From positions 1 to 37,361 of the IMG/VR virus record IMGVR_UViG_3300025132_000115: a stretch of 37,361 bases of DNA, one strand, 5' to 3'. The DNA comes from a virus. Made by a program: the position numbers and the translations under genes. Below, one piece after another: positions 6,757 to 25,226 of this stretch (positions within the stretch are counted from its first letter, which is position 1; each line of letters opens with the position of its first letter). Below the pieces are notes generated by a model. It saw only the letters and a list, made by a program, of their open reading frames with translations. It had not been told where the DNA came from and did not search any database.

Positions 6757-7421
6757 TGGAACCTATATCCACAGCTTTGGCTGGTATAGCACTCTTTAAA
6801 AGTGCCGTAGATGGCATTAAAGGTGCTATAAGCACAGCTAATGATGTAAGCGATATAGCTGGCTTTATAGATAACCTTTTTGAAGGTGAGAAACAGGTAC
6901 AGCAGAAACGTAACCAAAAATCAGGAATAACCGTTGGTGATCAATTTGGTATTAAAAACGTAGCTTCTGAGATTATCGATGCCAAACTTGCTAAAGAACA
7001 AATGTATGAAATTTCTCAAATGGTTGATTTACGTTTTGGTAATGGGACGTGGAAATCTATTGTAGAAGAACGTGCTAGGCGTATACAGGCTGCTAAAGAA
7101 GCCGCCGCTGAAGCTAAACGTAAGAAAATACAAGAAGCCAGAGAGTTTGAAGAAAACCTAAAACAATTTTTTATAATTGCCAGTGCCGTTGTAGCGGCGG
7201 CAGTGTTTTTTATTATAATGATGGTTATGATAGCAAGAGCAGAAACACAATTTGTAGAATGTCGTCTTGAAGAGTATGAAAAAGTAGATAAAGAATGGCA
7301 TTGTTATTATTTAGGAGCTAACAAAACCCGCACTTCTATGGTCATTAGTGAGTTTTGTCCCAGAACTTATATGTGTGAGTATGACCCTAACTCAAAAAGT
7401 AAAATAACTAAATTTAGATAA
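6756..7421 (+). CDS. membrane-anchored protein with coiled coil and Cys-rich C-terminus, 221 aa
   Basis: Residues about 100-135 are a charged Ala/Lys/Glu coiled coil, followed by one strong transmembrane segment at 138-160. After it comes a 60-residue tail with four cysteines (169, 183, 201, 207), a layout suited to two disulfides outside the cytoplasm. The N-terminal 40 residues are Ala/Gly-rich and weakly hydrophobic. It is the last gene of the virion run and overlaps the 3' end of the convergent helicase gene by 8 bp. A role in ejection or lysis is possible; I do not recognise the family. Confidence 0.65.
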   Translation: MEPISTALAGIALFKSAVDGIKGAISTANDVSDIAGFIDNLFEGEKQVQQKRNQKSGITVGDQFGIKNVASEIIDAKLAKEQMYEISQMVDLRFGNGTWKSIVEERARRIQAAKEAAAEAKRKKIQEAREFEENLKQFFIIASAVVAAAVFFIIMMVMIARAETQFVECRLEEYEKVDKEWHCYYLGANKTRTSMVISEFCPRTYMCEYDPNSKSKITKFR

Positions 7422-8859
7422 TCCATTCTCTATACCCCTCAGCTAACACACGGCTACTAATATCAATTTTATCCCGTAAAGCGCGGATAACTTTTTCATC
7501 TACAGTTTTTTCAGCTATGATATCTATGTACGTTACTTTATTTGTTTGCCCAATGCGGTGAGCTCTATCTTCACTTTGTAACCTAACTTCAAGGTCATAA
7601 CCATTACTATAATATATAACTGTTTTAGCTTCTGTAAGAGTCAGCCCATAACCTCCTGTGCGGGGTTGTCCTACAAAAAACCGTAAAGGGTTAGCGGGGT
7701 CTTGGAATCTTTCAACAATAAGCTGGCGTTCCTCTGCTGGAGTAGCACCATAGAATAATTCTACACTGTCTTCACCATATTCTTTTGCAAGGGCTTTTTG
7801 TATAAGCTCAAGGTCATGCGTAAAGTTACCCCAAATAATAACCTTACCATCAGTTTCTTCAAGAGCAGACATTAGTTCATTGAGCTTATTTGTTGGGACT
7901 TCAACCATTCGTCCATCTTCTAATTTAGCAAAGCCAGAACAAACTTGTTGCAACCTAAGTATTTGTGTAAGGACAGTAGGCGCAGAAATTAACCCGCCAT
8001 CTTCACCTTCTACAATAGCAAGAGCCATACTTTTCATTTGTTCGTATAACTTTTTTTGCTCAGGTGTGAGCTCTACTGTTCTACGAGTGTAAACTTTATC
8101 AGGCAGGTCTAAACAATCTTCCTTACGAACACGATAACTAAATGGCTCGATAATACCATTTAACTCATCAAGGTTTTGATAGCCTACAATCTGGTTAAAA
8201 CTATGCGCTCCCATTGTACGGCGCATCATTTTAGCATACCTGTTTTGGAATGTCCAGAAACTGCCTTGCCCTAATACATAATGTTCTAAAAACTCACATT
8301 GGGTAAATAAATCTAAAGGTGATTTAGTAACAGGTGATCCTGTAAGTATCCTACGGTAAGGCGCATTTTTACCCAACTTAATCAAGTTTTTAGTACGTTG
8401 AGCAGTACGGCTTTTAATCGTAGTGCTTTCATCTACTGCAAGCATTGTTCTGTGGGTAAACAGGAATTTATCAGCTTCCTCTAAACCACGTTTCGTACTT
8501 AATGCTTCTACATTCATAAGGAATATTTGTAAGTCTTCCGTGACTTCTTTTAAGGTATCTAACTCTTTTTTCTTTTTCTGAGTTTGCTCAGGTGACCACG
8601 AAACAATATTCATTTTTATATGGTCGGGCATATGTGTGGGCAACTCTTTGCGTTCCCAATTTCTATACACACCTTTAGGCGCAATAATCAAGGCACTATC
8701 TATTTCACCTTTATCATACAACATTGCTATTGTATCAATAAGGACTTTAGATTTGCCCGTACCCATATCCATAAATAAAGCATAATAGGGTTTATCCCAT
8801 GAACGCTTTAATGCCTCAAGCTGATGCTCGTAGGGCTTAAACTTAAATTTGTACCTCAT
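7414..8859 (-). CDS. SNF2/DEAD-like superfamily 2 helicase, 481 aa
   Basis: Superfamily 2 motifs are in order: an early Q-like segment (YEHQLEAL), Walker A MGTGKS at residues 32-37, a Walker B variant AVDEST, motif III LTGSP, then a C-terminal RecA-like domain with VIIWGNF and the SNF2-type motif VI DRAHRIGQT. Length suits a minimal phage SNF2 helicase without accessory domains. It probably remodels or unwinds DNA during replication or recombination. It is the only minus-strand gene, facing away from the replication operon across a shared regulatory gap and meeting the virion operon tail-to-tail with an 8-bp overlap. Its leader has the GTAGAAAG loop element seen before many plus-strand genes, so it probably shares their control. 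Confidence 0.92.
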   Translation of the reverse strand: MRYKFKFKPYEHQLEALKRSWDKPYYALFMDMGTGKSKVLIDTIAMLYDKGEIDSALIIAPKGVYRNWERKELPTHMPDHIKMNIVSWSPEQTQKKKKELDTLKEVTEDLQIFLMNVEALSTKRGLEEADKFLFTHRTMLAVDESTTIKSRTAQRTKNLIKLGKNAPYRRILTGSPVTKSPLDLFTQCEFLEHYVLGQGSFWTFQNRYAKMMRRTMGAHSFNQIVGYQNLDELNGIIEPFSYRVRKEDCLDLPDKVYTRRTVELTPEQKKLYEQMKSMALAIVEGEDGGLISAPTVLTQILRLQQVCSGFAKLEDGRMVEVPTNKLNELMSALEETDGKVIIWGNFTHDLELIQKALAKEYGEDSVELFYGATPAEERQLIVERFQDPANPLRFFVGQPRTGGYGLTLTEAKTVIYYSNGYDLEVRLQSEDRAHRIGQTNKVTYIDIIAEKTVDEKVIRALRDKIDISSRVLAEGYREWII

Positions 8860-16114: not shown

Positions 16115-17011
16115 ATGTTAACCGAAGCTATAGAAAGTTACTTCGGGTGGATAAATGAGAGACACTCGATCTACCTACGCAGGAGGTCGGGTGCTCCCGC
16201 CCCTTGGACTACTGACCGTATCCTACAGGAATTTAAGTTTACAAACCCTTTCCGTGAAAACGATAGGGTTACTATTTGGATGCGTGAAAACTGGACAAAG
16301 CCAAACAACAATCGCCCTCATGGTGAGATACTGTTTAATTGTTGTTTATTCCGTATGATAGGCACAAGTGAGTTTGCCGAACAGCACGGCTGGGCAGAAG
16401 AATTTAACCCTGCTCGTACAAAAGAATTAATACAAACCAGAATTGAGAATGGTTTACGAACATTTACTGGTGCGTATATAATCACTAACCAAGGACTCAA
16501 AGCACCAAAATCAGAGGTTGTGGTTGACCATTTTCTTAAGCCTATCTGGGAAAACAAAGAAGCGTTGGCGCAGATCGCCGCCGAAACGCAGTCGCTCCAA
16601 AAAGTACATGAAGCGATGGGTTCCTATCGGGGATGGGGAGGGGGAGGTTTTATGTCATATGAGGTTGTTACCGACCTCAACCACACGCCTGTATTATCAT
16701 CGGCAGAAGACCGTTATAGGTGGGCGAACGCTGGTCCTGGAGCAGTTAGGGGATTAAACAGAATCCTTGGCTTACCTCTTAAAAAAGGTATGGGTCAGCC
16801 TATGGCTAATGATCATATGATCAAGTTGTTATCCAAAGCCCCTTTTTACATTCAACCTCATGTTCCCTTAAAAGAAGTTGATATGCGTACTATTGAGCAT
16901 AGCTTATGTGAGTGGGATAAATATGAAAGAGTAAGGTTAGGCCAAGGTAGACCGCGCAGTATTTATCGCCCTACCTTATTAACAGATACACCTAAAGGAG
17001 CTGTAGAATGA
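16115..17011 (+). CDS. 5-hmdU DNA kinase helical-domain-like protein (putative base hypermodification), 298 aa
   Basis: Residues 31-56 contain WTTDRILQEF and FTNPFREND followed by RVTIWM, which resembles the helical domain found in 5-hydroxymethyluracil DNA kinases and the related alpha-glutamyl/putrescinyl thymine pyrophosphorylase-type proteins of phages with hypermodified thymine. The usual P-loop kinase part is absent, so this is a helical-domain-only form. A Gly-rich turn (YRGWGGGGFMSYEV) and a helical C-terminus follow, reminiscent of DNA-glycosylase-like folds. The stop overlaps the glycosyltransferase start (ATGA), which argues for joint function. Recognition is from memory of the motif; a profile search against PF18723 would settle it. 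Confidence 0.55.
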   Translation: MLTEAIESYFGWINERHSIYLRRRSGAPAPWTTDRILQEFKFTNPFRENDRVTIWMRENWTKPNNNRPHGEILFNCCLFRMIGTSEFAEQHGWAEEFNPARTKELIQTRIENGLRTFTGAYIITNQGLKAPKSEVVVDHFLKPIWENKEALAQIAAETQSLQKVHEAMGSYRGWGGGGFMSYEVVTDLNHTPVLSSAEDRYRWANAGPGAVRGLNRILGLPLKKGMGQPMANDHMIKLLSKAPFYIQPHVPLKEVDMRTIEHSLCEWDKYERVRLGQGRPRSIYRPTLLTDTPKGAVE

Positions 17012-17979
17012 AAGTAGACCTTTATTATTTAAGCCCTAATCCCTATGGGGGATGGGTTACTTATACAAATCATTTAATGATAGCATTGAGGGCTTCTGGT
17101 ATTGATTGTGAGTTATTTAAAATCCGACCTAAAAGTGAACGTAAAACACGGGATTTTGGTTATGGAAAAAGATACCGTAATATTTCTATGCAAGAAGCCT
17201 TGAGTAGAAAAAACACAATTAAACTGATAGTAGCTGGAGCTAAACAATTTAAAGATGAAACAGAAACACTTTATCAGGCGGGTGCTTGTTTAATAATACA
17301 TGATCCGACAGAGTTAAAAAACTTACCTGAAAATTTAGATTTCACTCGTTGTGTGAGTATACGTCAGATAGGTGCTAGAACATTACAAGGCACAGAATTT
17401 ATTCGTCACCCTTATAAATGTTTTTCTGGGCATGCGATTACCCCTCGCAAAAAAGCAATCAGCACTTCTAGGATTGATTTCGACAAGCACACTTCTATCT
17501 TGTTAGATGCTAACCGCCTTTTGAAAGATGAAGATAAAATTGATATCCGTGGGTTTGAAAACAGGATTTTCACACGGTTCAAAATTGTACCTAAGTACCC
17601 TGAGTGGGTTCAATCTGTTGCACAGTACCCAAGGGAAGAATCTTACGCTTTTGAAATGATGACTAACTACACCTATAATGTAGATATGACACAAATTAAA
17701 GGTGATGGCGGGGGTACTCAGTATACTTGGCTAGAAGCGTGGAATGCTGGTTGTATACCGATCATCCATGAAAACTGGTTGTTAGATCAACCAGATGATA
17801 TGATTCCAGATAAAAACTGTATTGTGGTTAGTGGTGCAGAAGAGCTAGCAAAAGTTTTAACCGAAGAAGAAAACCACACTGCTTTAGCAAACATGAGAAA
17901 GCATTGCTTTGAAGCATTAGAAAAGCATGCCCCTGAACTAATAGGGCAAAAATACAAAGCCTTTTTAGAACGCCTTTAA
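17008..17979 (+). CDS. GT-B-type glycosyltransferase, candidate DNA glycosyltransferase, 323 aa
   Basis: The start MKVDLYYLSPNPYGGW, with a Gly-containing loop after the first strand, and the C-terminal block GDGGGTQYTWLEAWNAGCIP (residues 232-251) are typical of GT-B, GT4-like enzymes; Glu243 sits where these bind the sugar nucleotide. The N-terminal half also has Rossmann-like strands (IKLIVAGA, ACLIIHDP). No signal peptide or membrane segment, so it is cytoplasmic. The gene overlaps the putative hmdU-related gene by 4 bp and precedes a thymidylate-synthase homologue, so phage DNA is the most likely acceptor. Alternative: it glycosylates a protein or host glycan. Confidence 0.75.
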   Translation: MKVDLYYLSPNPYGGWVTYTNHLMIALRASGIDCELFKIRPKSERKTRDFGYGKRYRNISMQEALSRKNTIKLIVAGAKQFKDETETLYQAGACLIIHDPTELKNLPENLDFTRCVSIRQIGARTLQGTEFIRHPYKCFSGHAITPRKKAISTSRIDFDKHTSILLDANRLLKDEDKIDIRGFENRIFTRFKIVPKYPEWVQSVAQYPREESYAFEMMTNYTYNVDMTQIKGDGGGTQYTWLEAWNAGCIPIIHENWLLDQPDDMIPDKNCIVVSGAEELAKVLTEEENHTALANMRKHCFEALEKHAPELIGQKYKAFLERL

Positions 17980-17981
17980 CA

Positions 17982-18030
17982 GGCCGCTCGAGCGGTCTAA
18001 CTATGGTGGGGGTGTAAACCCCTACCACCA
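17982..18030 (+). promoter_or_regulatory. two adjacent hairpins between glycosyltransferase and TS-like genes
   Basis: CCGCTCGAGCGG (17984-17995) is a perfect 12-bp palindrome, extended by a GU and a GC pair. Next, TGGTGG (18004-18009) pairs with CCACCA (18025-18030), with further inner GC pairs around GTAA. No T-run follows, so it is more likely an operator, attenuator or processing site than a simple terminator. Confidence 0.5.
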
Positions 18031-18058
18031 ACTACTAAACACGTCTAGGAGGCGTTAT

Positions 18059-19036
18059 ATGCAATCTATTTATGCTCGCGGGGTAAGTGAAGCCCTGTTT
18101 CTAGGCAGACAAGCACTGCTTTCATCTGGTGTGGCAGTTGAAACACGCAATGGTTCAGCACTTGAGTTTCCCACTCCTGTTATTACTACCTATACACATA
18201 GCCGTGAAAGAGTTTTGTTTTATCCAGAACGCGACGCTAATCCTTATTTTCATTTAATGGAAAGCCTTTGGATGTTAGCAGGACGTAATGATGTCCCTTG
18301 GATTCAAGGCTTTAATGGTAAGATGGATACATACAGTGATGATGGTAAAACTTTCCATGGTGCGTATGGATACAGGTGGCGAAACTGGTTTGGTAAGGAT
18401 CAGCTACAAGAAGTAATGTTTCGGCTTGGTACTTACCATAATGACCGCAGGGCTGTACTTGGTATCTGGGATCCCCACCAAGATTTAGTGCAAACTAATG
18501 ATGGCAAAGATTACCCCTGTAATACCCAGATATATTTTTGGGAACGTAATGAAGATCTAAACATGACTGTGACTAACCGCAGTAATGATATGATTTGGGG
18601 AGCATACGGCGCGAATGCTGTACATATGTCCGTTCTGCTAGAGTATATGGCAGGAATGTTAGGCTACGGTGTAGGGACATACTATCAATTCAGCAATAAC
18701 CTCCATGCTTACACCAGTGTTTTAGATAAGCTGGAAGGTATGCAAGCTGATTATGAACCATACCTTACAATAGCTGATAATGGATTAAGCTATACTCCCC
18801 CTGCACTTATAGATGATTCAGATACTTTTGATGAAGAGTTGTTAAAATGGTTTGAAGATGAAGATCGTACAGAATATAATAATTCTTATCTTTCTACTAC
18901 TTGTGGCGAAATGAGAAAATCATGGCGTTATTGGAAAGCAAAGAATTTTCCTAGCGCATACCATCATGCCAATAAAATAGAAGACCGTGCTTGGCGCAAG
19001 GCTTGTATAGAATGGCTGGACAGAAGGGTAAAATAA
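18059..19036 (+). CDS. thymidylate synthase / pyrimidine hydroxymethylase homologue, 325 aa
   Basis: TS-fold landmarks: the helix HLMESLWMLAG with Glu68 and Trp71 (like the ELLWFL segment of TS), the catalytic Cys154 in YPCNTQIYF, RSNDM with Arg174 and Asp177, and NLHAY with His216 and Tyr218. Two points differ from true thymidylate synthase: the Cys is followed by Asn instead of His, and the segment carrying the dUMP-reading Asn reads GAYGANAVH, with one extra residue instead of GxPFNxxxY. Such changes are compatible with dCMP or dUMP hydroxymethylases, which make 5-hydroxymethyl nucleotides. AGGAGG at 18047-18052 sets the start. Context with hmdU-related and glycosyltransferase genes favours hydroxymethylation; substrate and product remain inference. 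Confidence 0.8.
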   Translation: MQSIYARGVSEALFLGRQALLSSGVAVETRNGSALEFPTPVITTYTHSRERVLFYPERDANPYFHLMESLWMLAGRNDVPWIQGFNGKMDTYSDDGKTFHGAYGYRWRNWFGKDQLQEVMFRLGTYHNDRRAVLGIWDPHQDLVQTNDGKDYPCNTQIYFWERNEDLNMTVTNRSNDMIWGAYGANAVHMSVLLEYMAGMLGYGVGTYYQFSNNLHAYTSVLDKLEGMQADYEPYLTIADNGLSYTPPALIDDSDTFDEELLKWFEDEDRTEYNNSYLSTTCGEMRKSWRYWKAKNFPSAYHHANKIEDRAWRKACIEWLDRRVK

Positions 19037-19401
19037 TGGAAGGGCATGAAGAGTATATGAAACGCATGGCTAAAGAAGTAGATCAAACCAATAGTGCTAT
19101 CATTCAAAAAGTTGATGTGTTGGCTAGTTTAGATACACTAAAACTAAATGAGGCAGAGCAATCATATGGCGATAGTTGGAAACAACGCGGCGGGGTGGGT
19201 GCTTTTATGATGTTAGCTCGCAAATGGGATAGGCTTGAAAAGCAAGTAACAGAACATAATTACGATGTTTTCCACGCTATTGAACAGGATGCGCGGGAAG
19301 AAGGTATTATTGATGATATCCGTGATTTGCGTAGGTATCTTTTTCTTGTTGAAGCTGAGATAGCATTAAGGAAAACAGATGGATCAGGAAAGCCCAAGTA
19401 A
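19036..19401 (+). CDS. Nmad1/DUF1599-like, MazG-like small protein, 121 aa
   Basis: The ATG at 19036 overlaps the stop of the TS homologue (TAATG); the longer in-frame ORF from 18991 lies inside that gene. The protein is helical and acidic with YGDSWKQRGG and FMMLARKWDRLE, which resembles DUF1599, also called nucleotide modification associated domain 1. The all-alpha pattern also recalls MazG-type nucleotide pyrophosphatases, but a clear ExxE metal motif is not obvious. Its place after the TS homologue supports a role in nucleotide metabolism or base modification. Confidence in the family is moderate. Confidence 0.55.
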   Translation: MEGHEEYMKRMAKEVDQTNSAIIQKVDVLASLDTLKLNEAEQSYGDSWKQRGGVGAFMMLARKWDRLEKQVTEHNYDVFHAIEQDAREEGIIDDIRDLRRYLFLVEAEIALRKTDGSGKPK

Positions 19402-19558
19402 CCTTGACAAAAAGGTTCAGGCTGAATGTGAGTGTGGTAGGGAAAAACGAATCGTCACTTTTCGTAACCTTAAAAACAGATGGCCTATTTGTAATAAATG
19501 TAAGCAACCGATGAAGGTAAAAGGTAATGCAATACCCCCTATTTCAACCACCGACTGA
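19379..19558 (+). CDS. tiny zinc-ribbon protein, 59 aa
   Basis: ATG at 19379 inside the end of the preceding gene, stop at 19556-19558 inside the start of polA; it fills the 125-bp interval between them in a third frame. Four cysteines form two knuckles, CECG (residues 17-20) and CNKC (38-41), separated by a basic stretch (REKRIVTFRNLKNRW). This is the layout of a minimal zinc ribbon that could bind nucleic acid or a protein partner such as the polymerase. GATCAGGAAAG follows the start, and no strong ribosome site was seen, so it may be coupled to the upstream gene. Confidence 0.6.
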   Translation: MDQESPSNLDKKVQAECECGREKRIVTFRNLKNRWPICNKCKQPMKVKGNAIPPISTTD

Positions 19559-21458
19559 GTGGGTTATGCCTGATGGCTATCCTGACCTTACTGGTTATAA
19601 AGAGGTTGCTATTGACCTTGAAACACGCGACCCTAATTTGACTACGATGGGTAGTGGCTGGGCTAGAAAAGATGGTCACATAATTGGTGTGGCTGTAGCT
19701 GTGGAAGGAGACCAATGGTACTTTCCCATCAGACACGAGATTGGTCCTAACTTTGATGCAAAACGAACATTAGGGTGGTTACAAGATGTATGCAAAATTG
19801 ATAGGGATTATGTTTTCCATAATGCTCCTTACGATGTTGGCTGGATGCTCGCAGAGGGTGTGCGGGTTTACGGCAGAATCGTTGACACAATGGTCGTGGC
19901 ACCTCTGCTCGATGAAAACAGATTTAGTTACGCATTAAATGCTATTGGTAGGGATTACTTACAAGAGCGTAAAAGCGAAGTTGAGCTAAGAGAAGCGGCG
20001 GCGGCTTTTGGGATTAATGCTAAGAGTGAAATGTATAAACTCCCTGCACATCATGTAGGTAAGTATGCTGAACAAGATGCCGCGCTTACCTTAAGATTAT
20101 GGAATCATTTTAAAAGTTTAATTATTAAAGAAGATATTGAAGATGTGTTTGAGTTAGAACTTAATGTTCTTAAAACAATTATCCCTATGAGGGAACGTGG
20201 TGTTTGTGTAGATGTAACTCGGTGTGAAACTATAAAGAAAGATCTGCTCTTACGCGAAAAACGGTTATTGGATAATATAAAAAGGCAGACAGGCGTTGAA
20301 GTAGAAATATGGGCGGCTGAAAGCGTTGCTAAAGCCTTTGATGCTTTAGACTTGCCTTATAATAAAACTGAAAAAACAGGTGCGCCGAGTTTTACAAAAG
20401 GGTTTCTAACTCACCACCCACATGAAGTAGCACAAATGATAGTGCAAGCTAGAGAATACCAAAAGGCGCGGTCTACTTTTGTGGATACAATATTAAAGCA
20501 TCAGGTAAATGGGCGTATCCATGCCGAGCTACACCCGCTAAGAAGTGATGATGGTGGGACAGTAACAGGCAGATTTAGTTATAGTAACCCTAACCTCCAG
20601 CAAATCCCTGCACGGCATGGCGAAATAGGTCCAATGATCCGTAGCTTGTTTATACCAGAACAAGACTGCTTATGGGGCGCGTTCGACTACTCTAGCCAAG
20701 AACCGCGCATTGTTGTGCATTATGCTAAACTCATGGGCTTCAGAGGGGCTTCAGACTTTGCTGAACAATACAACGCAGACCCCCGCACTGATTTCCACCA
20801 AATGGCGGCTGATATTGTGGGTGTGCCACGCAAACAGGCTAAAGATATCAACCTTGGTTTGTTTTATGGGATGGGAAGTAAAAAGTTAGCGGCGAGCCTT
20901 GGCCTTGAATTTGAAGATGCACAAGATTTATTTGCTACTTACCACGATAAAGTGCCTTTTGTCCGCGAATTAAGTGAATACAGCACGAACAGAGCGAGTA
21001 ATCGTGGGGTTATCCGCACATTGCTGGGGCGTAGGTGTAGATTCGATAAATGGGAGCCAAATAAGTATGGTAGTTGGAAACCAATGACCTACCAAGAAGC
21101 CTACGCTGAGCATGGTCCTGGAATTAAACGAGCATTTACATACAAAGCTCTTAATAAACTCATACAGGGTAGCGCGGCCGACCAAACTAAAGCCGCGATG
21201 GTTGCTCTAGCTGATGAAGGCATACTACCCATGATTCAAGTTCACGATGAGCTAGATATTTCTGTTGAAAGTGAAGCGCAGTCTAAACGTATAGCAGAAA
21301 TCATGGAACATTGCGTGAACCTAGAAGTTCCTTCAATTGTAGATGCAGAGTTCGGTCCTAATTGGGGCGAAGCAAAACAAACTTTCACAGAAAAGCCTTG
21401 GCTTAGAGGAGTAAAAGATGGCGGCACAGAAATGCGGCACAACACCAAACTTTCATGA
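19527..21458 (+). CDS. polA: family A DNA polymerase with 3'-5' exonuclease domain, 643 aa
   Basis: Exonuclease motifs: Asp30-Leu-Glu32 (Exo I), HNAPYD with Asp103 (Exo II) and YAEQD with Tyr180 and Asp184 (Exo III), so proofreading should be active. Polymerase motifs: A, AFDYSSQEPR with Asp387; B (O-helix), RKQAKDINLGLFYGM at 435-449; C, VHDELD with His573 and Asp574. There is no 5'-3' nuclease domain, as usual for phage PolA. The residue equivalent to E. coli Phe762 is Leu443 (codon 20853-20855). Motif A has Pro where cellular enzymes have Leu (ELR). This is the replicative polymerase of the phage. The 3' end overlaps the next gene by 41 bp. Confidence 0.96.
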   Translation: MQYPLFQPPTEWVMPDGYPDLTGYKEVAIDLETRDPNLTTMGSGWARKDGHIIGVAVAVEGDQWYFPIRHEIGPNFDAKRTLGWLQDVCKIDRDYVFHNAPYDVGWMLAEGVRVYGRIVDTMVVAPLLDENRFSYALNAIGRDYLQERKSEVELREAAAAFGINAKSEMYKLPAHHVGKYAEQDAALTLRLWNHFKSLIIKEDIEDVFELELNVLKTIIPMRERGVCVDVTRCETIKKDLLLREKRLLDNIKRQTGVEVEIWAAESVAKAFDALDLPYNKTEKTGAPSFTKGFLTHHPHEVAQMIVQAREYQKARSTFVDTILKHQVNGRIHAELHPLRSDDGGTVTGRFSYSNPNLQQIPARHGEIGPMIRSLFIPEQDCLWGAFDYSSQEPRIVVHYAKLMGFRGASDFAEQYNADPRTDFHQMAADIVGVPRKQAKDINLGLFYGMGSKKLAASLGLEFEDAQDLFATYHDKVPFVRELSEYSTNRASNRGVIRTLLGRRCRFDKWEPNKYGSWKPMTYQEAYAEHGPGIKRAFTYKALNKLIQGSAADQTKAAMVALADEGILPMIQVHDELDISVESEAQSKRIAEIMEHCVNLEVPSIVDAEFGPNWGEAKQTFTEKPWLRGVKDGGTEMRHNTKLS

Positions 21459-22242
21459 TATAGGGATTATATCAGGAGGTTTTGACCCCCTGCACTCAGG
21501 GCATTTGGATTATATTTTATCTGCGGCAAAACAATGTCATAGACTTTACATAGGTGTGAATAGTGATGAGTGGCTCATAAAGAAAAAAGGTAAGGCTTTT
21601 ATGCCCTTAGAAGAAAGAATAAACCTTTTAGAACACTTACACTTACCTTGCGAGTTTTTTGTTGTCCCTTTTGACGATAAAGACGATACCGCGAAGAGCT
21701 TAATAAAAGATGTACTAGCTTGTAATCCTAAAGATTTCATTTGTTTTATGAATGGTGGTGATAGAGATAAACAAAACACCCCTGAGCATGAACTTCTCAC
21801 AGAAATGTCTGATTCATACACACAATATCTAACATTCAACAACGACGTAGGTGGTTCTAATAAGAAAAACTCTTCCAGTGATTTATTAGATAATTGGTCA
21901 AAGGCCAAAACAACTCGTCAATGGGGGTATTACAAAGTTTTAGAACAAAAACCTACTCAAAAAGTTAAGGAGTTAGTGGTTTTTCCAGGAAAATCTTTAT
22001 CTGATCAAAAACATTTTTCTAGAAGTGAACATTGGTACATACTGTCTGGTGAGTTAATTATGCACATGGAAACAGATAAAGCTAAAACTAAACAAGTATT
22101 ATACCCACATCAAACAATAGTCATTCCTCGACAAACATGGCATCGCGCTGAAAACATTAATGCAGAGCCTTGCCATGTGATAGAAATACAATATGGAGAT
22201 GTATGCGAAGAAGAAGATATAGAAAGAAGAAACCATGAGTAA
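21418..22242 (+). CDS. nucleotidyltransferase-cupin fusion (sugar nucleotide synthesis), 274 aa
   Basis: The N-terminal domain (about 13-155) is a cytidylyltransferase-like nucleotidyltransferase: GGFDPLHSGHL with the HxGH motif at 26-29, LEERINLLEHL, and NKKNSSSDLL as the second nucleotide loop. After a short linker, residues 168-270 form a cupin like the C-terminal part of mannose-1-phosphate guanylyltransferase/mannose-6-phosphate isomerase: QWGYYKVLE, then KHFSRSEHWYILSGE with His199 and Glu204, WHRAEN with His242, and IEIQYGDV. The protein should activate, and perhaps isomerise, a small sugar or polyol phosphate. GAGGAG before 21418 sets the start. It probably supplies the donor for the upstream glycosyltransferase, though no direct evidence exists. 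Confidence 0.8.
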   Translation: MAAQKCGTTPNFHDIGIISGGFDPLHSGHLDYILSAAKQCHRLYIGVNSDEWLIKKKGKAFMPLEERINLLEHLHLPCEFFVVPFDDKDDTAKSLIKDVLACNPKDFICFMNGGDRDKQNTPEHELLTEMSDSYTQYLTFNNDVGGSNKKNSSSDLLDNWSKAKTTRQWGYYKVLEQKPTQKVKELVVFPGKSLSDQKHFSRSEHWYILSGELIMHMETDKAKTKQVLYPHQTIVIPRQTWHRAENINAEPCHVIEIQYGDVCEEEDIERRNHE

Positions 22243-22750
22243 TTCGTTAAATATAAAAACCCTGACAACAGCTTGGGATGCACAATTTTTATTAAGATAT
22301 CATACGGTTGCAATGCAATCGGAAAGGCAAACCGTGGGAGCGCATTCATACGCAGTAAGTGTTTTAATAGACCAATTATGGCCTGACAGCACTAAACAAT
22401 TAATTATGGCGGCACTGTATCATGATGTGCCAGAAATAATTTTAGGTGATATTCCTGCTACGGCTAAGTGGAATTATCCTGAAGTACAACAAGCCTTTGA
22501 AAAAGCTGAGAAAAAAGTGTTTGATGACCTTGGGTTAATATTTGTACTCAGCCCAGAAGAAAAAATACGATTGAAAATGGCTGATATGTTAGAGCTCGTT
22601 TTATACACACACCGTCATTCTCAAGGTAGCGACCAAATGAAATTGATTATGCACTCTGGTATAAGTTACCTACATCAAAAATTCTCTTCTGAGCCAGATT
22701 TTGAGCCAGTAAAGGCAGTGTTAGCTCATTACAATTTAGGGGTAAGTTGA
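22235..22750 (+). CDS. HD-domain phosphohydrolase, YfbR-like 5'-deoxynucleotidase, 171 aa
   Basis: HD-superfamily metal ligands are present: His37 (VGAHSYAV), His63-Asp64 (ALYHDVPE), then Glu67 and Asp72 (ILGDIPA), and a later Asp in LKMADMLELV. The size and the PEIILGDIPA block match YfbR-type 5'-deoxyribonucleotidases, which dephosphorylate dNMPs. In a phage that modifies pyrimidines such an enzyme could remove unmodified dCMP or dUMP/dTMP, or recycle host nucleotides. It overlaps the preceding gene by 8 bp and the next by 1 bp. Confidence 0.85.
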   Translation: MSNSLNIKTLTTAWDAQFLLRYHTVAMQSERQTVGAHSYAVSVLIDQLWPDSTKQLIMAALYHDVPEIILGDIPATAKWNYPEVQQAFEKAEKKVFDDLGLIFVLSPEEKIRLKMADMLELVLYTHRHSQGSDQMKLIMHSGISYLHQKFSSEPDFEPVKAVLAHYNLGVS

Positions 22751-23055
22751 TGAATTGTATTAAATGTGGTGCAAAAAGCAAAGTTTATGAAAGCAGAACT
22801 CATCCTTCGGCATTTGGAGAAACTATGATGCGTAGAAGGGAATGCACTAAATGCAAAACCCGATACAAAACAATAGAAATCATTATGCCTGAACAATCAA
22901 AACCAGTAGCCGTGCCTAAACCTGAAAAGAAACGCAGAAAAAAGGTAAGGAAACGTAAACCGATGTCTCTTCATCAAATTGAACCAGATTTTGATAATAT
23001 GACAGATGAAGAAATCGAAGCATGGATTACTAGAGGAAAAAACTATTATGTCTAA
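22750..23055 (+). CDS. NrdR-like zinc-ribbon protein without ATP-cone, 101 aa
   Basis: The ATG at 22750 overlaps the previous stop (TGATG). The first 45 residues copy the NrdR zinc ribbon: Cys3 and Cys6, an ESRTHP turn, then MRRRECTKCKTRYK with Cys32 and Cys35. The NrdR ATP-cone is missing; instead there is a strongly basic Lys/Arg linker (about 62-75) and an acidic C-terminus with DEEIEAWI. It may bind DNA or a host factor. A truncated mimic of the host ribonucleotide reductase repressor is an attractive but unproven idea, in line with the nucleotide genes upstream. Confidence 0.7.
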   Translation: MNCIKCGAKSKVYESRTHPSAFGETMMRRRECTKCKTRYKTIEIIMPEQSKPVAVPKPEKKRRKKVRKRKPMSLHQIEPDFDNMTDEEIEAWITRGKNYYV

Positions 23056-23341: not shown

Positions 23342-23395
23342 GTCTTCTACAATTAGCTATTGTATATTAGGGTATTCTGCAGAAAGGGAGTGCTT
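23342..23395 (+). promoter_or_regulatory. promoter-like element and YAGAAAG leader hairpin
   Basis: GTCTTCTA (23342-23349) is followed by TATTAG at 23365, the same spacing as before the gene at 29412. TACAAT/ATTGTA flank TTAGC-like text between them. GTATTCT (23372-23378) pairs over 7 positions, three of them GU, with GGAGTGC (23387-23393) around GCAGAAAG. Confidence 0.5.
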
Positions 23396-23908
23396 ATGAA
23401 TATCTTTATAGTTAATTGGGATCACACTATTTGTGCTCAATGGCATTGCAACAAACACGTTGTTAAGATGCCACTTGAGACTACCCAAATGCTCAGCACT
23501 GTCCACCACAGGTACAGTAATGATGGACCATTTTTACCTGTTCATCAAAAACACCCCTGTACTTTGTGGGCAGGGCAAACGATTGAGAATTACCGTTGGC
23601 TTTGGCGGTTAGGTATCGCATTATGTAAAGAGTATACTTATCGCTATGAAAAAACCCATGCTTGTGAAAGAATTCTTGCAATGCTTCGTTGTCCTCCTGT
23701 AGAATTACAAGCGAGGGGGTTTACAAAACCCGCTCAAGCAATGCCCGATGAATATAAACATTCTGATACCCTCATGGCATACCAGAATTATTACATAGGA
23801 GAGAAAGCGAGGTTAGGTGTATGGCACAAAAGGCCAGTTCCCCCCTTCATGGAGGAGATAATGTTATCCCGTTCATCCGACGAGAAAAACAATCAGACCC
23901 CATCATAG
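23396..23908 (+). CDS. phage protein, possible pyrimidine-dimer glycosylase family, 170 aa
   Basis: The ATG at 23396 follows AGAAAGGGAG; the longer in-frame ORF from 23360 lies over the promoter. Conserved-looking blocks are CAQWHCNKHVVKMPLETTQM, KHPCTLWAGQTIENYRWL, CKEYTYRYEKTH and AQAMPDEYK. I know this pattern from a common phage family that is sometimes annotated as pyrimidine dimer DNA glycosylase (PF03013). The conserved His, Cys and Glu residues suggest an enzyme, but I cannot confirm the T4 endonuclease V catalytic arrangement. If correct, it would repair UV damage. Confidence 0.6.
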   Translation: MNIFIVNWDHTICAQWHCNKHVVKMPLETTQMLSTVHHRYSNDGPFLPVHQKHPCTLWAGQTIENYRWLWRLGIALCKEYTYRYEKTHACERILAMLRCPPVELQARGFTKPAQAMPDEYKHSDTLMAYQNYYIGEKARLGVWHKRPVPPFMEEIMLSRSSDEKNNQTPS

Positions 23909-24764: not shown

Positions 24765-25031
24765 ATGTACTCAGCACAAGTTTATTATAACTCGCGTGAG
24801 GGGCATTCCCTCACACCTATGTATCCTAGAATAGGATTGTTAGAAACTTATCTACATTATACTGGTTTAGTTGATAATGTTGATGATGTTAAAGAAATTG
24901 TAATCTTAAAAGGTGGGCGTCGCAAGATGCCCACTATCCACGGTTATTATGACTGGGTTAAAGGTAAACTCAAATTAGATAAGAGTAAGCCAGTTATGAT
25001 CCACAATATTTTGTATGGACTAGGGGATTAA
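24765..25031 (+). CDS. small protein of unknown function, 88 aa
   Basis: The start at 24765 is set by TAGGAGGT just upstream; the longer ORF from 24696 lies within the preceding gene. The protein begins MYSAQVYYNSREGHSLTP and is basic toward the C-terminus (KGGRRKMP, KGKLKLDKSK), so nucleic-acid contact is possible. No known family recognised. Confidence 0.65.
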   Translation: MYSAQVYYNSREGHSLTPMYPRIGLLETYLHYTGLVDNVDDVKEIVILKGGRRKMPTIHGYYDWVKGKLKLDKSKPVMIHNILYGLGD

Positions 25032-25034
25032 AAT

Positions 25035-25226
25035 ATGGTTGAGTGGGTAGATCCAAGATTGAATCTTCAAACCGTTGTACCCTATAAGGTGCAAGAAGAT
25101 GGTTTTATCTATGGTGAGTTTCATCGGTTAAAGTACGCAATCGTTTTTGCCAAAGCTCTGCAAAAAGAGTTAGGTACTGATGTGAGTATACATGGACCAA
25201 ATGGATGGGAGGAGTACGATGGGTAA
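25035..25226 (+). CDS. small protein of unknown function, 63 aa
   Basis: Begins 3 bp after the previous stop and overlaps the next start by 8 bp. MVEWVDPRLNLQTVVPYK is followed by a helix (YAIVFAKALQKEL) and an acidic end. It looks like a compact alpha/beta protein. No motif recognised; the tight packing supports it being real. Confidence 0.6.
   Translation: MVEWVDPRLNLQTVVPYKVQEDGFIYGEFHRLKYAIVFAKALQKELGTDVSIHGPNGWEEYDG

Follow-up and report, generated by a model that had tools for sequence, protein, structure and literature searches.

A probable glycosylating form of the M6-type thymidine hypermodification module, lacking the DNA kinase, in a marine phage

Gene content of the module

The IMG/VR virus record IMGVR_UViG_3300025132_000115, a tailed-phage fragment of 37,361 bases which was taken whole and is called the window in the following, carries a candidate module for the glycosylation of hypermodified DNA at positions 16,115 to 22,750. 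All genes of the module lie on the plus strand. The first encodes a helical protein (HEL, also labelled aGPT-PPlase1; 16115-17011) which matches the PF18723 profile HMUDK_hel with an E-value of 2e-50 over profile positions 1-276 of 281 and is an orthologue of gp55 of Pseudomonas phage M6. Its stop codon overlaps the start codon of a GT-B glycosyltransferase (GT) gene (17008-17979) as ATGA. Further downstream are a TS homologue, the proposed dUMP 5-hydroxymethylase (18059-19036; PF00303, 7.6e-20; phrog_5131, 1.4e-102), a small conserved module protein (18991-19401), the family A DNA polymerase PolA with a 3'-5' exonuclease domain (19527-21458; PF00476, 2.3e-60; PF01612; 37% identical to M6 gp62), a nucleotidyltransferase-cupin fusion, the proposed sugar-donor enzyme (21418-22242; CTP_transf_like PF01467, 8e-12; MannoseP_isomer PF01050, 7e-22), and a YfbR-like HD nucleotidase (22235-22750; PF12917, 2.4e-10; PF13023), which is a homologue of M6 gp59. 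An earlier note on this DNA had assigned the HEL, GT, TS, PolA, fusion and HD genes in the same way, and these labels stand; its label of an Nmad1-like gene for 18991-19401 had to be dropped, as PF07659 gave no match at E-values up to 1 in the window or its relatives. Judged from its genes, the window probably carries a version of the M6-type module for thymidine hypermodification which lacks the kinase and glycosylates instead.

The phage is of the marine HTVC023P type, since the HTVC027P/HTVC023P group comprises its closest named relatives by both TerL (63% identity to HTVC027P) and PolA (50-56% to the HTVC023P group, with 56% to 023Pt_psg01). The same phage is also represented by a longer copy of 53,380 bases with 99.98% identity over 16.9 kb. 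For comparison we used 80 close HEL loci, 44 whole records (the window and 43 relatives, fragments among them) and a further 80 distant loci, which were retrieved with an alignment led by the HEL of Pseudanabaena phage Pam3. HTVC023P, HTVC027P, 023Pt_psg01 and DSL-LC04 all lack HEL; the module is missing from them and a helicase adjoins PolA.

In M6, Stenotrophomonas phage Sonora and Pam3 (for Pam3 by annotation) the gene order is an amino acid:DNA transferase, the kinase PF18748, HEL PF18723, Nmad5, TS and then PolA. An HD gene follows TS in M6 and Pam3, and genes for pyridoxal phosphate (PLP), radical SAM or oxidoreductase-like proteins are located nearby in the clusters of all three phages. 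The window resembles M6, a Yuavirus with 5-NedU, in that a single cluster holds orthologues of its HEL, TS homologue, HD protein and PolA, but differs from it by the lack of the PF18748 kinase, the PF18724 transferase, the PLP gene, the M6-type radical SAM gene and Nmad5, and by a GT between HEL and TS.

Four protein families share the slot between HEL and TS

The window GT gave no family match in Pfam, PHROG or NCBIfam. Its AlphaFold model is of middling confidence (pLDDT 70.6) and comprises two Rossmann-like domains with a GT4-like C-terminal motif. Against the PDB, 60 structures were matched at E ≤ 0.001, and all of the 50 listed are GT-B-type enzymes, mostly of GT4 types. Among the many GT-B enzymes was the T4 alpha-glucosyltransferase (AGT; E 5e-5), and the matched AGT structures include complexes with hydroxymethyluracil DNA.

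In the 80 close loci, four families were found in the slot between HEL and TS: the window-type GT-B, a GT4-type GT-B, TAGT PF20691, which is the family of the T2/T6 DNA glucosyltransferases, and a family termed CL5. Three of the four are recognisable as GTs. Within the 44 whole records TAGT occurs 14 times, the window type nine times and the GT4 type 19 times without overlap, and the last two records, G041 and G042 (L077 and L078), have CL5 in the slot. The GT4-type family has weak GT4 matches and no match among phages, and it is a distant relative of the window type (hhalign probability 94, E 1.5e-7). Two loci (L063, L070) have a slot that looks empty and a GT4-type GT about 6 kb upstream of HEL; four others without a GT label (L026, L028, L049, L074) end soon after HEL. 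In 28 close loci the slot contains TAGT followed by a radical SAM/SPASM protein (e.g., L011:9196-10966), a pairing which suggests that a sugar bound to the DNA is tailored by radical chemistry.

CL5, a protein of about 335 amino acids, fills the GT slot at L077:8889-9905, L078:8889-9890 and L082:2339-3337, with a further relative scored at L171, one of the distant HEL loci. It has no Pfam or PHROG match. A relationship to the T4 beta-glucosyltransferase (BGT), for which collinear motifs can be seen by eye, was not retained: 54-139 of 500 shuffles reached the same score, so that CL5 was left without an assignment, although it is possibly an unrecognised GT.

On the PolA tree the slot labels need seven changes, compared with 35 in shuffles. 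The window-type GT needs four changes, of which at least three are forced by well-supported branches. The wider HEL tree, which was computed with a quick method and contains long branches, asks for 16 changes of the slot label. The exchange among GT types is a repeated one, as read from these trees.

Slot families and the 5-hmdU DNA kinase exclude each other

That the P-loop DNA kinase is missing had already been stated in the earlier note, and the PF18748 profile of the 5-hydroxymethyldeoxyuridine (5-hmdU) DNA kinase indeed has no match in the window, nor in any of the 44 whole records, while the same profile finds the kinases of M6 and Sonora. The amino acid:DNA transferase PF18724 has no match in the window and none above the cut-off in the 44 records. 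Sub-threshold PF18724 scores in seven relatives derive from frames of about 300 amino acids, and that of record G039 falls, by its coordinates, inside HEL in the C-terminal half. Moreover, neither the window nor any of the 80 close loci gave a tblastn match to the kinase, transferase, PLP, radical SAM or Nmad5 proteins of M6.

In six-frame profile searches of 161 HEL loci, a slot family in the absence of kinase and transferase was present in 118, a kinase in the absence of the slot families in 32, both in none and neither in 11. After removal of near-copies 62 slot-family loci and 30 kinase loci remained, again without a locus carrying both. As HEL alone was used to retrieve the loci, there was no selection for either the kinase or the GT label. 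A Fisher test of this exclusivity gives 1e-24, a figure which ignores the relatedness of the loci.

These distributions bear on the question of whether the GT has a non-DNA target, for instance a host surface glycan, and owes its place in the module to chance or to co-expression. The GT4-like fold is common and phages do carry GTs of this kind; however, four families fill one and the same slot, no locus has a slot family as well as the kinase, and the TAGT family is known from T-even DNA glucosylation, which together render a target other than DNA quite improbable.

Gene-exact exchange between near-identical phages

Two close relatives, L005 and L004, share 91-97% identity with the window on both flanks of the GT. 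The similarity breaks at position 17012 and returns at 17983, and only the GT gene differs there; the junction before the GT start codon, GGAGCTGTAGAATGA, is identical in the window and L005. A second break (21453-22250) corresponds to the nucleotidyltransferase-cupin gene, which is carried by the window and its near-copies only. The swap of the GT and the gain of this gene are the large gene-level differences within about 17.5 kb. Further differences are about 170 bases near 25031-25201 and the divergence of the small conserved gene (18991-19401), which is 73-75% identical between the window and the two relatives.

The helical protein without its kinase

HEL is 35-38% identical to the proteins of M6 and Sonora (35% to M6 gp55) and its model is confidently folded (pLDDT 91). 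By sequence as well as by fold, no significant match was found in the PDB. In BFVD the model matches the helical proteins of phiRSL1 and PhiW-14 and a 637-amino-acid "5-hmdU DNA kinase" of SP10, and more weakly amino acid:DNA transferases (E 4.7e-4). The DNA glycosylase MagIII at a TM of 0.3 is a hint only, and a comparison of the profiles of HEL and the amino acid:DNA transferases was not significant.

HEL is still present where kinase and transferase are absent and therefore cannot serve those two alone. The simplest reading, which we infer from this distribution, is that of a subunit which recognises 5-hmdU within the DNA, or flips it, on behalf of a partner enzyme. Alternatively, HEL could itself be a catalyst, perhaps related to the transferases, which adds a linker to 5-hmdU following an activation step by an enzyme of the host or an unrecognised one of the phage. 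The sugar would then be placed by the GT on that linker and not on 5-hmdU directly. The weak fold similarity to the transferases, the sub-threshold PF18724 score within its C-terminal half and the high conservation of HEL in the absence of the kinase are in favour of such an activity; since the M6-based searches revealed neither a kinase nor a PLP gene and the profile similarity to the transferases was not significant, we consider it unlikely, albeit the most probable of the alternatives. A further alternative is glycosylation of the mononucleotide before incorporation. HEL, however, is kept in every locus considered, and its family is tied to 5-hmdU modification in DNA and is annotated within the SP10 kinase, so that this route, which nothing specific to these loci favours, has very little probability.

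The TS homologue and the identity of the base

The TS homologue is about 42% identical to M6 gp58 and to the Sonora protein. In the window, M6, Sonora, Pam3, AIIMS-Plu-RaNi and eight relatives it contains an Asn within the motif GA.GANxVH or a close variant thereof. After a shift of one residue this Asn aligns with Asp179 of the T4 dCMP hydroxymethylase, in agreement with the TS alignment. Asp179 is the key determinant of the T4 enzyme for dCMP over dUMP (Asp179; PMC6400193), and M6 DNA contains a 5-hmdU derivative (PMC6449724). On account of the Asn at this position the pyrimidine of the window is most likely uracil. A T4-like glycosyl-5-hydroxymethylcytosine would be in line with the activity of TAGT and the T4 enzymes AGT and BGT on 5-hydroxymethylcytosine DNA; the replacement of Asp179, the closest similarity of the TS to M6-type phage proteins and the affiliation of HEL with 5-hmdU systems argue against it and make cytosine a highly improbable base.

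Sugar genes associated with the GT type

The cupin PF01050 is present in six of the nine records with a window-type GT and in none of the 35 others (p 1.2e-5), and the FkbM methyltransferase PF05050 in five of the nine compared with one of the 35. Either one or the other occurs in all nine window-type records and in a single one of the others (p 1.4e-8), p values which overstate independence because the records are related. Nucleotidyltransferase and cupin are encoded by two adjacent, overlapping genes in L094, and in record G032 (L097) the cupin gene is flanked by TS and the small conserved gene. These observations support, without proving, that the cupin, nucleotidyltransferase and FkbM genes make or tailor the sugar. 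The case for a supply of the sugar by the fusion enzyme, as proposed in the earlier note, is circumstantial, but it gains weight from the gene-exact presence or absence of the fusion gene and from the co-occurrence of the cupin with the GT type. Four carriers of the GT4-type GT (G011, G013, G018, G023) have a stand-alone CTP_transf_like nucleotidyltransferase downstream of PolA (e.g., L098:8027-8455, L099:6809-7237), which is possibly another sugar-donor gene.

Further genes of the window

Homologues of the small conserved protein account for more than 100 ORFs in related loci; it has no Pfam match above the cut-off, and its core SYGDSWKQRGGVGAFMMLARKWDRLE is very conserved among GT loci and also in part of the kinase loci. 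DpoZ, the aminoadenine polymerase, obtained the top NCBIfam score for PolA but was rejected with 336 bits at a cut-off of 500. Position 22747-23055 encodes an NrdR-like zinc-ribbon protein, as judged by similarity to L011:8906-9199 (PF22811), whose homologue in TAGT loci is located between HEL and TAGT. The ORF at 23360-23908 has a weak Pyr_excise and a strong phrog_624 (DNA binding) match and may belong to the module, since in a distant TAGT clade HEL is immediately preceded by homologues of this gene. An SNF2-type helicase is encoded on the opposite (minus) strand at 7414-8859; its top PADLOC scores are for the helicase portions of ZorD and DpdE and probably reflect general helicase similarity. 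Rfam and tRNA scans of the window gave no match.

Proposed pathway and comparison with known systems

In the pathway which we propose, the TS homologue would make 5-hydroxymethyl-dUMP, the HD nucleotidase would remove competing nucleotides and the phage PolA would incorporate the modified nucleotide. HEL would bind the DNA and present 5-hmdU to its partner, which would be the adjoining GT-B enzyme instead of a 5-hmdU DNA kinase, and a sugar, activated with the help of the nucleotidyltransferase-cupin protein, would be joined to the hydroxymethyl oxygen. The predicted product is a base-J-like glycosyl-5-hmdU, which may guard the genome against nucleases and 5-hmU glycosylases. The earlier note's outline, a hydroxymethyl-pyrimidine made, put into DNA and glycosylated without a P-loop kinase, is well supported by the comparative evidence. 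Several points weigh against this pathway. The sequence of the window GT matched no known DNA GT among phages and in the PDB, the acceptors of GT4-like folds are mostly other than DNA, and CL5 is not recognisable as a GT. Many of the loci are related and their counts not independent; the switch between kinase and GT asks for about four changes on the HEL tree, so that the independent events are few. Furthermore, the cupin is missing in three of the nine window-type records.

An association of hypermodification genes in such phages is partly published: TS, aG/PT-PPlase1, a 5'-deoxynucleotidase and a putative glucosyltransferase of HTVC023P-type pelagiphages were read as M6-like DNA hypermodification (PMC9599517). 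These pelagiphages are of the same phage type as the window with an overlapping gene set, but the accessible part of that report mentions neither kinase absence, kinase/GT exclusivity, GT swapping nor sugar genes. Kinase absence, exclusivity, GT exchange and the type-linked sugar genes appear to be new. With T-even glucosylation (dCMP hydroxymethylase, alpha-GT, beta-GT and TAGT) the module shares a hydroxymethylase of the TS superfamily and a DNA GT, TAGT itself occupying the slot of relatives, whereas the window has the uracil-type residue and HEL, and its GT lacks a sequence match to the T4 GTs. Base J of trypanosomatids, glucosyl-5-hmU, resembles the predicted product, a sugar on 5-hmU, but arises via oxidation of T in DNA (JBP1/2), whereas 5-hmdUMP is proposed to be made before replication in the window. 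For the chemistry, Yersinia phage YerA41 sets a precedent: its thymidine carries a large, probably glycosidic substitution of about 1 kDa, which is not a plain hexose (PMC9023294).

Biological implications

HEL may be accompanied by a kinase or by a GT, but in none of the loci compared by both, and this offers a direct handle on its function. If recognition is indeed the task of HEL, the marine GTs should prefer the same sequence as the M6 kinase, which acts on TG (PMC6449724). The slot GTs could moreover become tools for labelling 5-hmU in DNA. The exchange of the GT type between near-identical phages suggests selection for varying the sugar coat, probably against enzymes which read one modification. 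From the genes compared here, a group of marine phages apparently incorporates a modified thymine during DNA synthesis and then adds a sugar where related viruses add an amino acid. PF18723 might tentatively be regarded as an interchangeable adaptor which presents 5-hmdU either to a P-loop kinase, as in M6-like phages, or to unrelated GTs, as in the marine phages, and glycosyl-5-hmdU DNA with variants of the sugar may then be widespread in the sea.

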